Notes under the pieces: model-generated
What the model saw: only the letters and a program-made list of their open reading frames with translations
Database searches by the model: none
What the model was told of the DNA's origin: nothing
Origin: a virus
Direction: 5' to 3' (one strand)
Length of the DNA stretch: 26,319 bases
Virus record (IMG/VR): IMGVR_UViG_3300043587_000013
Coordinates: 1 to 26,319 of that record
Program-made: the position numbers and the translations under genes
Shown here: positions 15,969 through 26,319 of the stretch, in pieces
Layout: every line of letters begins with the position of its first letter
How positions within the stretch are numbered: the first letter of the stretch is position 1

Positions 15969-16630
15969 GCGTTGAATTCCTGAAACGGTTGCAGCATGTC
16001 GCAAATCTCTGGCGGCAGCGCCGACGTGTTCGGCATCGTCATGCTGTTGTATTCTTCCTTGATGACGCCTGGGATTTCCTGCGAGCGAAGGAACCGGTCA
16101 CGGCCCCAGGTGTCATTGCGGATCTTCAGCAGCGACAGGCATGCCGCCTGCAAATCGGGCGGCAAATTGTTCGGGTCGTAACCACCGGTATAAACGATCT
16201 CCAGGCTCATCATGGCGCTGTTCGACCAATGCCACGACCAATAAGACCGTTGCCCCTCACTGAGCCGCCACAGCCGCCCGCGGTAGGCATCAAGCTGGTA
16301 ATCATCCGCGGACAGCGGCGGATCATCATCGACCGAGCCGAACGACACGATCTCGGTCACCGGATAACGCCGCAGGGTCAGGGGCCGGATCTCCACCGAG
16401 ACTTCCGGCAGATACCAGAAATCAGTGCCATGCCACGTCTCGCTGACCGTCTCCCTGATCAGGGTGCGATTGCAGTGCCGCTCGATATAGACGCTCGTCT
16501 CGCGTATCCAGCGCGCCAGGCGGGCATCGTTCTCGTCGGTGGTGATGCCGAGTTCCTCTTTCGCGATCTCCAGCGTCGTCAGGTCGTGCGACGCCGCCGG
16601 CTCGATCACCTCGATGATAGAAGATTTCAT
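15965..16630 (-). CDS. Head-tail connector protein, gp6-like
   Basis: A 221-residue protein with the gp6-type layout: an N-terminal helical region (TTLEIAKEELGITTDENDA, about 18-36; ARLARWIRETSVYIERHCNR, about 36-55) and later a TGGYDPNNLPPDLQAACLSL motif (about 148-167). The TGGYD...LP..l..A signature is characteristic of DNA-packaging connector proteins that form a ring under the portal. ATG at 16630 overlaps the methyltransferase stop as ATGA, so this essential gene is translationally tied to the two enzyme genes before it. The adaptor follows with a GTGA overlap. Confidence 0.8.
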   Translation of the reverse strand: MKSSIIEVIEPAASHDLTTLEIAKEELGITTDENDARLARWIRETSVYIERHCNRTLIRETVSETWHGTDFWYLPEVSVEIRPLTLRRYPVTEIVSFGSVDDDPPLSADDYQLDAYRGRLWRLSEGQRSYWSWHWSNSAMMSLEIVYTGGYDPNNLPPDLQAACLSLLKIRNDTWGRDRFLRSQEIPGVIKEEYNSMTMPNTSALPPEICDMLQPFQEFNA

Positions 16631-17295
16631 GGGCGCACCCGCCGGAACGCGAACGAGGTGATCCCCTCGCGGCCCAGGATCGTCTCCACGTCACTGACCT
16701 CGCGCAGCTTCCAACCAAGCCCGTCCATGAAAATGATCAGGCCCGCCTTACTGAAGTACCAATAATGCTCATCCTTCCGATAGTGTTTCGACTTCAACAC
16801 CTCGGCGGGACCAGGAAAGACCGGAAGCGAAATGAAGACGCTGTCCTCGACCTGTTCCAACAGTTTTGGAAAATCAGGGATATGCTCCAGGCTGTCCCAG
16901 AACGACATCGCCAGGCACGGCTGGCGGTAGGGGTTCCACAGCTTCTCCTGGGCCTTGAGCCAGGCGACCCCCGCCGGGTTCACGTCATAACCCCAGGTGA
17001 ACGGTCTGGCGTCCACGAAGGCCCCGCTGCCGATGCCGATATCAACGAGGTGACCCTGGTAATGCCGCGCGACCAGCGCGACGCGCGCCACGTTCAGCCG
17101 CGCTCCCAGTTCGGTGCGAGCGTATGCCTGATACTTTTCGAAGTAGGCCTCGTCATAAATCTGCGTGCCGCCGGTCGCCGGGTAATACCCGTAGCCCAGT
17201 TCGGGAAACCAGCAGAGTTCAGTGGACAGCGCCTTCGTCAGGCTGCGCGGGAGGATCGGGAAAGGCGTGGTAAGGCACTCGCCCAGCGACGCCAT
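16627..17295 (-). CDS. Class I SAM-dependent methyltransferase (type 11/23-like)
   Basis: A 222-residue enzyme. Motif I VDIGIGSGAF (about 84-93) binds S-adenosylmethionine, GYDVNP (102-107) provides the acidic residue for the ribose, and SFWDSLEHIPD (131-141) is the usual post-II motif of small-molecule or polysaccharide methyltransferases. HYWYFSKAGL (177-186) is also typical. No DNA-recognition domain or NPPY motif is seen, so DNA methylation is unlikely. It is preceded by a glycosyltransferase-like gene with a 58-nt overlap and followed by the connector with an ATGA overlap. ATG at 17295 is chosen to limit the overlap. ATG at 17349 has a better ribosome site (AAGGGAG) and would add 18 residues. 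The substrate is unknown; a sugar or a glycosylated virion protein is a reasonable guess. Confidence 0.8.
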   Translation of the reverse strand: MASLGECLTTPFPILPRSLTKALSTELCWFPELGYGYYPATGGTQIYDEAYFEKYQAYARTELGARLNVARVALVARHYQGHLVDIGIGSGAFVDARPFTWGYDVNPAGVAWLKAQEKLWNPYRQPCLAMSFWDSLEHIPDFPKLLEQVEDSVFISLPVFPGPAEVLKSKHYRKDEHYWYFSKAGLIIFMDGLGWKLREVSDVETILGREGITSFAFRRVRP

Positions 17296-18155
17296 TGCTT
17301 TTCCAGGTCCGGTATCAGCTTCACGCACTGGTGCCGCATATCGATGCATTGGCAAAACTCCCTTGGCACCGCGAAGCCGATGCGTGATCCGTCCATGCGC
17401 CGGTCGATGATTTTCGATGGCGCGTTCATCCCGCCGTTGCCACCAAGCACGATGAATGTCGGTGTTTTCATCGCTATCGCCGCCGGAACGATCCATCCGA
17501 CACCGCCAACGACCACCGCCGCGTCCCTGACCATCGCCATCAGTTGGTTCAGCGTGCCCTCGCCGCGCAGCCTGGCCAGATTATGCGGCGGCACGTCGCC
17601 CTCGATCCACTCCGCGTTGTAGGCATTCGACGTGTCCGCGATCACGACCACCGCGAAGCCGCGGCGCTTCAGGTCGCCAGCGACGAAATGCACATATTCC
17701 GGCAGCGGGTTCCTGGCCTGATTGTCCCATTCCAGCCGCCGCATCACCGGCCTGACGATGGCCAACGGCGCGCCACCGGTATCGAACGGGCACGGTCCCA
17801 TCTCCGGTAAAGTCCAGTCCGGTGCTTTGGCTTCCGCTTTCGTCATGGGCAGCTTTCGCTCCATGGCGGCGAACACGCCGTCCTCCATCTCCAGGTGACC
17901 GTAGCCCAGCGCGATGGTGCCCAGGCCCGCCGGCAGAGGAGTCCAACGCTCCGGTGGCTGACGGCGAATGTTCTTAAGCTGGGTCCGTAACAACCGCTCG
18001 CCGAGAACGAACTTCAGGTTGGGGATGTCGTCGTAGAATTCCGGCCACGGCGTATCGACATAAAGCGTGCGCTGTTTCGCCGCCGCCTTCAGGAGTGGCC
18101 GCACATAGATCGCGTCACCCAGGCCCCACGGCGCTTTGATATGTAGTGGCGTCAA
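17238..18155 (-). CDS. GT9-like (heptosyltransferase-type) glycosyltransferase
   Basis: A 305-residue protein. The N-terminal GLGDAIYVRPLLKAAAK (about 11-27) is the hallmark of family GT9, which includes ADP-heptose:LPS heptosyltransferases. The C-terminal GGVGWIVPAAIAMKTPTF (217-234) followed by a GGNGGMNAPSK loop matches the donor-binding region in which GT9 members have G-x-D-S-G-x-x-H-x-A-A. Here the usual Asp/Ser and His are absent or changed, so activity is not assured. The start is TTG at 18155, overlapping the upstream stop as TTGA; no other start keeps the GLGD motif. It sits between the 88-aa protein and the methyltransferase, inside the morphogenesis operon, which suggests modification of a virion part or of the host envelope. 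Confidence 0.7.
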   Translation of the reverse strand: MTPLHIKAPWGLGDAIYVRPLLKAAAKQRTLYVDTPWPEFYDDIPNLKFVLGERLLRTQLKNIRRQPPERWTPLPAGLGTIALGYGHLEMEDGVFAAMERKLPMTKAEAKAPDWTLPEMGPCPFDTGGAPLAIVRPVMRRLEWDNQARNPLPEYVHFVAGDLKRRGFAVVVIADTSNAYNAEWIEGDVPPHNLARLRGEGTLNQLMAMVRDAAVVVGGVGWIVPAAIAMKTPTFIVLGGNGGMNAPSKIIDRRMDGSRIGFAVPREFCQCIDMRHQCVKLIPDLEKQWRRWASALPRLSRSSRAA

Positions 18156-22989: not shown

Positions 22990-24720
22990 TTACATCACCG
23001 GTCGTTCCAAGAACCCGGCCAGACCAGCCGCGTCATCACTCATGCTGCGACCGATGGCCATTATCAGCGCCATCACGCCATCGATCCGTCCCGTACTCAG
23101 CTTCTTGGTCGGCATGTAGTTCTCATTCACGTCGGTCCTGACGCGAAGGTTAAGCGCCATCCAGCGAAGCACGGGATTTCCACCATGGTTGAGCCGGTTC
23201 GACAGCAACCATGCCAGCAATTCCTTGGTCGGTGCCGTATAAGAACGAATGCCCTGGATGAATTCTTCCACCACGAAGCCCGAGTTCTGCAAGCCGACCG
23301 CGATCTGGGCGGCGTTCCAGGGGTCGTAAGCGATGGCGGCGACATCGTAGAGGCGTCCGTCCTCCTCGATGTACCGCTGGATCTCATTGTGGTCGATGAT
23401 GTTGCCTTCTGTCGGCTCGATCAGCCCGTCGCTGATCCAGCGGCGATACTGAACCTGGTCACGATCCGCCTTCTGTTCGACCGTATCGCCAGGCATCCAA
23501 AAGTTGGCCACGACATGCCACCGCTCACCGAGGTCCACGGGCGGAAACAGCTTCACCCAGGCCGCGAGGTCGGTCTTGGTGGCCAGATCCAGCCCAGCGA
23601 AGCATCTGCGGCCCCGCAGGACATCTGGATCGAAGGCACCGGTCGAATTGGCGTCCCAGAGCGGCCCGCTGATCAACTGGGTGGCCGAGGCCGTCCGCAT
23701 GTTCAGTCTTAGGCGCTTGAACTCCATCAGCTTGGCCGGATTGTGTTTCGCGGCCCTGGCCTGACGGTGCATGTCGTCCGCTTTGACCGAGATTCCCCAA
23801 TTTGGGTTGGCTTTTGGCCATACTTTCGGGTCATCCCAACGGTCTTCAGGGTCCAGGGTCGCGATATAAACCAGCCATTCGTCGTCGATGAAGGCTTGCT
23901 GGATCACGTTCCTGGCGTAGGTATGCTCCTGCGCGTAGACGCTTTCGGGCGAATCATCGCCGGCGGTGGTGATGATCCACATCAAGGGTTGCCGGCGCGA
24001 CCCCATCGCGGTGTCCAAAACGTCCAGAACCGCCCTGTTCCGATGCTTGTGGAGTTCATCGATGATGATCGCGTGCGGGTTCAGGCCGTCCAGGGTGCGA
24101 TCATCAGCCGATAACGGCTGAAAACTCGACATCGTGCCATCCACGGCGAGCGAGAGCCGGTAAACCGAGACGATCTTCTGCAAATCCTCCGATCTGAGGA
24201 CCGTACGCCGCGCTTCATCGAATACGATGCGTGCCTGGTCTTTTCTTGTCGCCGCCGAGTATACATCGGCACCAGGCTCGCCATCCGCGACCAAACACTT
24301 GAGAGCGATGACGGATGCACTTGTGCTTTTCCCGTTTTTCCTGCCGATTTCTTCGTATACCACGCGAAAGCGCCGCAAACCGTCTTTTCGCAGCCAACCA
24401 AAGGCGCTGCCATGGATGAACTGCTGCCACGGCTGGAACTCGATCCGCTGGCCCGCCCATTCGCCCTTGGAATGGCGGCAGAAATGGGCGAACTCGATAG
24501 CCCTGATCGCGATATCTGGCCGCCAGACGAAGCCGGTCTTCTTGCTGTTTTGGATGTCGCGAAAGTGGCGCTCGCACGCCTGTCGAACGAGGCCGCCGAC
24601 GACGATCTTGCCGTTCAAAACGTCCCATGCGTAGGCCGAAACCGGGTCAATTGACGGTTTTGGGCGCGTCCGCGAGGTAAGATTCGAGCGACTGGCGGGG
24701 GGCGTCCTTGGGTTGGGCAT
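22990..24720 (-). CDS. Terminase large subunit (HK97/Terminase_1 type)
   Basis: A 576-residue packaging motor. ATPase domain: Walker A GRKNGKST (126-133), Walker B HAIIIDELHKH (216-226, with D221 and E222) and motif III TTAG (251-254). Nuclease domain: candidate metal-binding D378 in GLDLATKTDLAAW, D466 in AYDPW and D548 in RIDGVMAL. It pumps DNA into the prohead and cuts the concatemer. ATG at 24720 overlaps the small-subunit gene by 74 nt; no ATG or GTG occurs further in, and only a TTG near codon 35, so the long overlap is kept. No strong ribosome site is visible, suggesting coupling to small-terminase translation. Confidence 0.93.
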   Translation of the reverse strand: MPNPRTPPASRSNLTSRTRPKPSIDPVSAYAWDVLNGKIVVGGLVRQACERHFRDIQNSKKTGFVWRPDIAIRAIEFAHFCRHSKGEWAGQRIEFQPWQQFIHGSAFGWLRKDGLRRFRVVYEEIGRKNGKSTSASVIALKCLVADGEPGADVYSAATRKDQARIVFDEARRTVLRSEDLQKIVSVYRLSLAVDGTMSSFQPLSADDRTLDGLNPHAIIIDELHKHRNRAVLDVLDTAMGSRRQPLMWIITTAGDDSPESVYAQEHTYARNVIQQAFIDDEWLVYIATLDPEDRWDDPKVWPKANPNWGISVKADDMHRQARAAKHNPAKLMEFKRLRLNMRTASATQLISGPLWDANSTGAFDPDVLRGRRCFAGLDLATKTDLAAWVKLFPPVDLGERWHVVANFWMPGDTVEQKADRDQVQYRRWISDGLIEPTEGNIIDHNEIQRYIEEDGRLYDVAAIAYDPWNAAQIAVGLQNSGFVVEEFIQGIRSYTAPTKELLAWLLSNRLNHGGNPVLRWMALNLRVRTDVNENYMPTKKLSTGRIDGVMALIMAIGRSMSDDAAGLAGFLERPVM

Positions 24721-25177
24721 GAGCCTGACTGTTCAATGTCGCACCCAAAGCGGGTGTTCTGGAGTTGTCGGCGAGGATGCGCGGACGCGAAATCGGGCTG
24801 AATCCGAGTTCAGCGCCGTGTTTTCGGACCAGTTCGCCCTGTTTGTTGATGATCGAGATCAGCGGATGCTGCGCTTCGCCCATCTTCTTGAGGATCGTCA
24901 GGTCATCCTGCCCCATCGCCTCGACCGCGCGCCTGTGCAGGCATAAAGCCACGCAATAGGCTTCCAGAATGCCGCTATCGAGGCGTTTGATGAGGTTCGG
25001 CGGCGAGTTGCGGATGGCGAACTCCCAGACCTCGCGCTGTTCCAGCGAGAAGTGCCGCGGAGCGGCGGTGGGGTCTTCGCTTAACGGGTGGTCCGGGATC
25101 GGTTCGTCTTTGTTTTCTGGCAATGTAGAGCCGTGCAGCCTCTTCATTCCCGGCATCGCCTGTACCCGGCCTTTCAT
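24647..25177 (-). CDS. Terminase small subunit, P27 family
   Basis: A 176-residue DNA-recognition subunit. The C-terminal part has QGELVRKHGAELGFSPISRP (about 113-132), the 'L-x-x-x-G-x-x-L-G-x-x-P-x-x-R' pattern of P27-type small terminases. The N-terminal ~40 residues are polar and probably disordered; the middle is helical (LEQREVWEFAIRNSPPNLIK). ATG at 25177 is preceded by AAAGGAG at a 6-nt spacing. It lies 15 nt after the HNH gene. The HNH-TerS-TerL order is the conserved packaging set of cos-type siphoviruses. Confidence 0.9.
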   Translation of the reverse strand: MKGRVQAMPGMKRLHGSTLPENKDEPIPDHPLSEDPTAAPRHFSLEQREVWEFAIRNSPPNLIKRLDSGILEAYCVALCLHRRAVEAMGQDDLTILKKMGEAQHPLISIINKQGELVRKHGAELGFSPISRPRILADNSRTPALGATLNSQAHAQPKDAPRQSLESYLADAPKTVN

Positions 25178-25192: not shown

Positions 25193-25474
25193 TTAGCGCC
25201 ACGCATGACCTTTCTCGGCGTGCCGGATGGCGTCACAGGCGTCGCACAGCAACCGGAGGTTCCAGTCGTGGTCGGGGCCACCCTGTGCGCGCGGCCTGAT
25301 GTGATCGACCCGCCACGAATCGGGCTTGCCGCAGTTCGCGCAGATGCCGCCGTCGCGATATTTGATCCGGTCGCGCGTCTGTTGCCACGCGAAGGTGCTG
25401 TAGAAGGATTCAGTGACCTTTTTAGGGGCTGGTTTCCAGCCGGGAGGGCGGTGTTTCGGCGGCGCGAAGGGCAT
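25193..25474 (-). CDS. Packaging-associated HNH endonuclease
   Basis: A 93-residue HNH nuclease beside the small terminase, as in HK97 gp74 and many cos phages where it assists terminase cleavage. Two zinc-binding pairs, CANC and CDAC, surround the catalytic core DHIRPRAQGG (first His), with the Asn in WNLRLLC and a C-terminal RH. I chose ATG at 25474 because GGAAGG precedes it by 8 nt. A GTG at 25504 would add 10 residues but has no clear ribosome site. The stop is 15 nt from the terminase gene. Confidence 0.85.
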   Translation of the reverse strand: MPFAPPKHRPPGWKPAPKKVTESFYSTFAWQQTRDRIKYRDGGICANCGKPDSWRVDHIRPRAQGGPDHDWNLRLLCDACDAIRHAEKGHAWR

Positions 25475-25524
25475 ATTTGGGGCCTTCCAGGGCCGCTGAG
25501 ACACTATCCCTAGATCGTGACAAT

Positions 25525-25554
25525 TTACTGGTCATTCGTGTGCGCTTTTGTCAA
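25525..25554 (-). promoter_or_regulatory. Candidate promoter upstream of the HNH/terminase genes
   Basis: A perfect TTGACA reads on the minus strand at 25554-25549. At an 18-nt spacing the -10 position is CAGTAA, which matches the consensus poorly. It lies in the only spacer upstream of the packaging genes and points toward them. Alphaproteobacterial promoters often have a recognisable -35 and a weak -10, so it stays a candidate. Confidence 0.3.
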
Positions 25555-25619: not shown

Positions 25620-25835
25620 TCAATCGCCGAAATCCACCATGAAATGCCCGCATTCGGGACAGCATCGGCCATGCGCGGAGATACCCTTCCACGCGGTGTG
25701 GTCACACGCCGGTCCCGCGACCCGCCTCAGTTCGGCGCGATAGATCGTCTCTAGCATCTGACGGCAGAGACAGGCCATGGAGACGTTGGCGATGCATTCG
25801 CCGGTCCTACTCAGGACGCAGCGAAGGTCGCTCAC
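25620..25835 (-). CDS. Small Cys-rich, probably zinc-binding protein, 71 aa
   Basis: A 71-residue protein starting at GTG 25835, which overlaps the stop of the 61-aa gene as GTGA. It contains eight cysteines (6, 14, 22, 24, 44, 58, 59, 62) and a C-terminal RCCPECGHFM ribbon-like end, plus His46, so zinc binding is likely. No family is recognised. A longer frame upstream overlaps the 61-aa membrane protein and has no better start. The gene precedes the packaging block; a regulatory or structural role is open. Confidence 0.5.
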   Translation of the reverse strand: MSDLRCVLSRTGECIANVSMACLCRQMLETIYRAELRRVAGPACDHTAWKGISAHGRCCPECGHFMVDFGD

Positions 25836-26017
25836 GGGTTCGTCCACCAGCCACTTTTGGACATGCCGATCACGATCACGACCAGGCTCAACAGCACGAT
25901 GATGAGTTTCAGGACCGGATCGACCAGCAACGGGCCGCGGATGACCGCGATGAACAGATCGACCGTCCAGCAAGCCAGGTAGGCGAATACAAACCACGTA
26001 ATGGCGCGTTCCTGCAC
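25832..26017 (-). CDS. Small membrane protein with two predicted TM segments, 61 aa
   Basis: A 61-residue protein starting at GTG 26017 with AGGAGG 5 nt before it. Residues about 6-26 (ITWFVFAYLACWTVDLFIAVI) and 33-51 (DPVLKLIIVLLSLVVIVIG) are hydrophobic, giving two membrane helices with a short polar turn, and the last residues (MSKSGWWTNP) are polar and Trp-rich. Size and layout fit a small holin-like or membrane-anchored phage protein, but no endolysin gene is adjacent, so the holin idea is tentative. An upstream extension to 26152 exists in frame but runs through the repeat region and lacks a ribosome site. Confidence 0.6.
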   Translation of the reverse strand: MQERAITWFVFAYLACWTVDLFIAVIRGPLLVDPVLKLIIVLLSLVVIVIGMSKSGWWTNP

Positions 26018-26042
26018 GGTGACCTCCTGGGATTTGTGATTT

Positions 26043-26144
26043 GTCACGCTTCCGCCGGGAAATGTCACGCCTCTCGTCTCGAGTGACGCGTTTCCGCCGG
26101 AAATGACCCCAAAAATGTCACGCCTTTTCCAGAAAAGGTCACGC
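26043..26144. repeat. Three GTCACGC-hairpin modules
   Basis: GTCACGC occurs exactly at 26043, 26064, 26117 and 26138, with diverged copies at 26083 (GTGACGC) and 26104 (TGACCCC). They form three pairs, each 21 bp apart. The bases between each pair form an inverted repeat that differs in sequence but not in form: TTCC/GGAA, TTTCC/GGAAA and CTTTTC/GAAAAG. The block lies just upstream of the 61-aa gene on the minus strand. Confidence 0.75.
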
Positions 26145-26150
26145 CTCGCC

Positions 26151-26230
26151 AAATCGGACAGATCGGACGGACAGATCGGACAAATCGGACAAATCGGACA
26201 AATCGGACGGACAAATCGGACAAATCGGAC
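26151..26230. repeat. Array of 9-bp units (AAATCGGAC) in a 2-4-2 grouping
   Basis: Eight copies, six exact AAATCGGAC and two AGATCGGAC, are split by two 4-bp GGAC insertions into groups of two, four and two. CCAAATCGG (26149-26157) and CCGATTTGG (26248-26256) form a 9-bp inverted repeat around the array. The 4-bp steps break any reading frame, so it is not coding. Confidence 0.85.
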
Positions 26231-26254
26231 GAATCGCCGTTTTTGACCCGATTT

Positions 26255-26295
26255 GGGGTGTTTTTGGGGTATTTTACCGGTTCAAAGGGGTGTTT
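26255..26295. repeat. Three GGGGTGTTT-like words at 11- and 21-bp spacing
   Basis: GGGGTGTTT at 26255, GGGGTATTT at 26266 and GGGGTGTTT at 26287. The spacings are close to one and two helical turns. The remaining bases to 26319 hold no recognisable gene; each minus-strand frame contains a stop soon after the right edge, so an upstream gene could only end here. Confidence 0.45.
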
Positions 26296-26319
26296 CCAGG
26301 TCTATTGGGTGCGTTGCTT

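Follow-up and report, generated by a model that had tools for sequence, protein, structure and literature searches.

The window, by which we mean the whole stretch of 26,319 nucleotides analysed here, is an incomplete record from an uncultured tailed phage, in which the minus strand carries all clear genes (tail genes, capsid, protease, portal, large terminase, small terminase and HNH endonuclease) and which, read in gene direction, begins at base 26319. The large terminase has only distant matches in named genomes, at 55% identity or less. Inside the head-tail gene block, positions 16627-18155 hold a methyltransferase-like gene (16627-17496) and an ORF (17238-18155). Our subject is the untranslated strip between the left virion end (cos) and the first small genes, where a block of short repeated modules lies beside two small ORFs that matched no Pfam family. 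The features of this end of the window are the following.

22990-24720, minus strand: large terminase
24647-25177, minus strand: small terminase (Terminase_4)
25193-25504, minus strand: HNH endonuclease gene
25509-25554, minus strand: conserved promoter-like box before the HNH gene (TTGACA ... TAAATT, then GTCACGATCTAGG), containing a lone TGTCACG word
25832-26017, minus strand: first small ORF downstream of the modules (GTG start, MQERAITWFVFAYLA...), with AGGAGG at 26023-26028
26043-26049, minus strand: word 4, GCGTGAC, 21 bp from word 3 and a short way upstream of the first ORF's AGGAGG
26064-26070, minus strand: word 3, GCGTGAC, 53 bp from word 2, a distance kept in relatives L003, L004 and L018
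26083-26089, minus strand: variant word GCGTCAC of a degenerate middle module, with the palindrome TTTCC/GGAAA at 26091-26103
26117-26123, minus strand: word 2, GCGTGAC, 21 bp from word 1, with the palindrome CTTTTC/GAAAAG between the two
26138-26144, minus strand: word 1, GCGTGAC, 176 nt from the virion end
26150-26236, plus strand: second array, of CAAATCGGA and CGGACAAAT words in steps of 9 and 13
26260-26319, minus strand: left virion end and conserved terminal element (beginning AAGCAACGCACCCAATAGACCTGGAAACACCCC...), alignable in each of the ten relatives and a candidate site for the small terminase

The four exact words read GTCACGC on the plus strand and share one orientation, with the eight-letter form TGTCACGC at three of them, and their spacing of 21-53-21 bp corresponds to two, five and two helical turns. 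The initial annotation described three modules, each with paired GTCACGC words 21 bp apart; two of these pairs are exact (26043/26064 and 26117/26138), but the middle one is degenerate, consisting of GTGACGC at 26083-26089 and ATGACCC at 26103-26109, 20 bp apart. The window contains 13 copies of GTCACGC where 7.5 are expected; two of 100 shuffles reach that observed number, and four of the 13 copies fall within 102 bp. This clustering is not due to chance, since 12 distinct 7-mers form a double pair 20-22 bp apart in this array and the CAAATCGGA array, compared with none in each of 40 Markov-shuffled windows. No further paired GCGTGAC sites were found in the window.

Among close relatives, which we collected via the small terminase, HNH and large terminase proteins, the modules are present in L003, L004 and L018 and missing in the other six of nine (L005, L006, L007, L008, L014 and L015), and this distribution over four of ten lineages is accompanied by changes in whole 21-bp units, one such unit being the indel that separates the window from L003 and L004. 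Word spacing is 21-53-22 in L018, 53-20 in L003 and 53-21 in L004, and L018 keeps the inner 53-bp distance despite only 59% identity in the inner sequence. Across the window, L003 and L004, none of the 28 word columns varies compared with 16 of the 79 other columns (P = 0.01, with few relatives and words picked post hoc). Where relatives lack the modules, different short repeats occupy the position, namely GCGTACAAGCA in L005 and L007 and TTTGCA words in L006, L008 and L015. The CAAATCGGA array, which adjoins the modules and is equally variable, is also found in L003 and L004 and is rearranged in L008. There are no GCGTGAC pairs in the long relatives G004 (67 kb) and G005 (72 kb) and one loose pair, located elsewhere, in G001, and a BLASTN search of the block against plasmids and phages returned chance-level matches only. 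The 72-kb relative has a DNA polymerase III beta clamp gene of its own (L353:8296-9486); close to it are genes for a VapE-like helicase, a PIF1/RecD-like helicase and a C5 DNA methylase.

The palindromes enclosed by the words had been taken to keep their pairing while their bases change, and hence to point to selection on a cruciform or RNA hairpin. They are indeed present, and two of the three exceed shuffled spacers (CTTTTC/GAAAAG, P = 0.001; TTTCC/GGAAA, P = 0.015), while TTCC/GGAA reaches only P = 0.07; the TTCC and TTTCC stems are a single core with a one-base offset. However, compensating changes are not what the relatives display: L003 and L004 have lost the pairing of the first stem (longest stem 3 and 2, respectively) and the whole of the third, and only the second stays unchanged. 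It is the words, not the stems, that are conserved. The more distant L018 does keep a 5-bp stem with different bases, which would suit selection for pairing. Against this, folding of the block is not significant (z = -1.9 as DNA and -1.5 as RNA), self-complementarity is not raised in 54 spacers from the arrays of other phages described below (2.17 vs 2.24 bp), an Rfam search of the block gave no match, and a terminator scan likewise found none. We therefore regard hairpins or cruciforms selected for pairing as exceedingly unlikely, and the palindromes would mostly be by-products of the repeat unit.

The initial annotation also placed the block beside the packaging genes and suggested a terminase-binding or cos element. 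The placement holds, as the last base of the window is almost certainly the virion end. In gene direction the same aligned base starts eight contigs (the window, L003, L004, L005, L007, L008/L009, L014 and L018), and G005 (72,464 bp) has both of its ends there, one reading ...GGACCCCACAC and the other CAGCAACG. L006 and L015 run through this end with nine extra bases (CGGGCGGRG), reading CCAC[CGGGCGGAG] and CCAC[CGGGCGGGG], respectively; in the wider family L109 reads CCAC[CGGCCCCGG]CCGCTTCCC and contig L091 starts at CCGCTTCCC. The nine extra bases would fit a 3' overhang of 9 nt that was removed by blunting. Fifteen contigs that are more distant can likewise be aligned to C.ccC...tgTGCGaCcGgGAAATt..ca.aGGGGGg, starting at their ends and with no gaps. 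At the right virion ends, just outside cosN, seven contigs of relatives (L030, L031, L036, L045, L109, L356 and L357) carry long GC-rich arrays of short words; these arrays (GGGGCAGAGGGGCACGGCC, GGTCGAGGCCAGCGG, GGCAGGGCTGG and GATGCCGCCC) are lineage specific, and several contigs break inside them. Aligned contig ends thus place the virion end, almost certainly, at the end of the window, beside the block, with the modules themselves 176-277 bp in from it on the terminase side.

This distance speaks for a cosB-like role. In lambda cosB, the R sites, to which the small terminase binds and which are important for packaging, likewise form a set of repeats close to the virion end and on the side of the terminase, presumably at broadly the position where the module block lies. 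Unlike what would be expected of such sites, the modules are absent from close relatives with closely related packaging proteins (L005-L008, L014 and L015), including L005, L006, L007 and L008, whose small terminases are 78-93% identical, and it is the terminus that is conserved instead, which is why a terminase or cos element is not supported. A second parallel is with HK97-type cos. Shared features are the HNH, TerS and TerL gene set, an apparent 3'-overhang cosN (9 nt in the window group, compared with figures of both 10 and 12 nt for HK97; PMC9410871) and a conserved A-rich element in the terminal 35 bp; the difference is that the modules lie outside this element and are not conserved with the terminase. 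In HK97 the small terminase binds, and requires no more than, positions +15 to +29 relative to the cut, where there is an A-tract (PMC11331095); this matches the terminal element of the window. The candidate packaging site, judged from these alignments, is therefore the conserved terminal 30-60 bp, separate from the modules, and we consider a terminase-binding role for the modules themselves very unlikely.

A lead to a function comes from unrelated phages. We scanned viral contigs for triple occurrences of the word, with the reversed word as control, and set aside several matches that were collagen-like coding repeats (GVTG). GCGTGAC gave at least 120 matches compared with 76 in all for the reversed word, and among the matches listed irregular arrays accounted for 51 of 80 and 23 of 76, respectively, with 0.92 and 0.17 reverse-strand words per irregular locus. 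Genes around the irregular arrays, again among the matches listed, include DnaB/AAA_25 helicases, DUF1376, DnaT, DnaB_2, primases and Prim-Pol, whereas those around control-word arrays are often capsid and tail genes; a hand tally of replication genes among these matches, over loci that are not fully independent, gave about 27:2 vs 8:15 for the control. Where the word lies within initiator genes, it falls in several frames and is present on both strands. Both L195 and E. coli prophages (in the latter at L363:2501-3541) have the array within a DnaT-like gene that precedes the gene for replication protein P, with steps of nearly always 10-11 bp and never multiples of three; elsewhere steps are 11, 11, 22, 11 and 11 in L182, 21-23 in L202, and mixed in the remainder. 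Such use of frames, strands and steps argues for sites at the DNA level. An unrelated phage with a different kind of terminase, L051, contains GGCGTGACATTTTTGGGGTTAGGCGTGACA, which shares 20 of 21 bases with the 21-bp unit of the window and adjoins a 67% A+T stretch, although this is a single case and a post hoc pattern. Periodicity over all arrays is about 11 bp, but we do not use it as evidence because arrays of the control word do about as well (R 0.32 at 10.5 bp). As a laboratory-strain case we checked E. coli K-12 Rac ydaU, where neither GTCAC nor GTGAC occurs. This DUF1376 gene (L364:4120-4977) instead has recurring TGTTCA-like words in the corresponding linker region, which may be another iteron word. 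A literature search with the word found nothing relevant.

We tentatively favor, on these sequence comparisons and with less than even confidence, the reading that the modules form an array of iteron type, made up of protein-binding words and most likely linked to replication. A sequence-specific phage protein would bind neighboring words along the same face of the helix. A replication initiator would be the best guess for this protein because other phages have this word in their replication genes or close to them. The array would then work as an origin or replication-control site, while packaging would use the separate conserved terminus. As in iteron arrays, the words are direct repeats at helical-turn spacing, in the window (21-53-21) and in L018 (21-53-22) alike; together with the invariance of the words, the 53-bp spacing kept in L018, the L051 unit and the replication-gene neighborhoods elsewhere, this speaks for the reading. 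On the other side, the array is non-coding and adjoins packaging genes, and there is no initiator gene among the ORFs beside it or anywhere in the window. Also to be counted against it are the six of nine relatives without modules, the lack of a GCGTGAC pair in G004 and G005, the single and post hoc nature of the L051 match, the 11-bp periodicity that is not separated from the control word, and a base composition that is only mildly A+T rich (about 0.5 vs 0.39 for the window) and lies outside the most A+T-rich 100-bp stretches of the window. Comparison with known origins is similarly two-sided. Lambda ori, whose iterons lie inside gene O and are bound by the O protein, is likewise a cluster of repeats of one word in a phage, and its placement inside an initiator gene is shared by L195 and the E. 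coli DnaT-like gene. The array of the window differs in being non-coding, beside cos, and without an initiator gene or a clear A+T-rich stretch, and TGTCACG is, as we take it, not the lambda iteron. Plasmid and phage P1 iteron origins share direct repeats spaced by whole helical turns and a unit of about 21 bp, but the window has no adjacent rep gene and only four words, and its origin activity is putative.

Two other explanations deserve weight. A cluster of operators, in which a phage regulator binds the TGTCACGC words and controls the left-end operon and perhaps the HNH-terminase promoter, is a close rival, even if we think it rather unlikely in itself; iterons and an operator set were both among the options named in the initial annotation. 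An operator cluster would make sense of the last word lying just ahead of the AGGAGG that precedes the first ORF, and of module-less relatives having other short repeats there, as if each had its own regulator. The promoter-like box before the HNH gene, possibly an operator, is kept with GTCACGATCTAGG in all close relatives and is recognizable in L043, L088 and L089, and its TGTCACG word (25515-25522) is kept too, as GTCACG in those three, although a lone word there may be chance. However, the module block has no sigma-70-like promoter (promoters of the host may differ from this type), and the window has no paired sites outside the block, with one loose pair elsewhere in G001. As a second close rival, the hypervariable DNA flanking cos in this phage group could simply fill with functionless, duplicated short words, a neutral process for which the adjoining CAAATCGGA array, the short-word arrays at the right ends of relatives and the patchy, unit-by-unit distribution of the modules all offer some backing. 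Neutral growth sits less well with words that stay invariant while the spacers change, with the distance preserved in L018, and with the recurrence of the word in replication genes of unrelated phages on both strands and in several frames, and we consider it unlikely.

The iteron reading has a wider, possible but doubtful, extension, namely that TGTCACG may be a shared origin word, present in helically phased arrays of unrelated phages with different initiators (DUF1376, DnaT-like or primase/helicase), either inside initiator genes or in nearby non-coding DNA, of which the window would be a cos-adjacent non-coding case. As for the virion end, the window shows that the point where metagenome contigs stop can be a physical cos end, and that such ends can yield a terminase recognition consensus for a large uncultured family. 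If the shared origin word were true, phage replication starts would have a single widespread recognition code, which a host factor might read, and its use across initiator families would need explaining, by convergence, origin exchange or a host protein. Were the word a common origin iteron, the origins of many uncultured phages would become findable from sequence alone.
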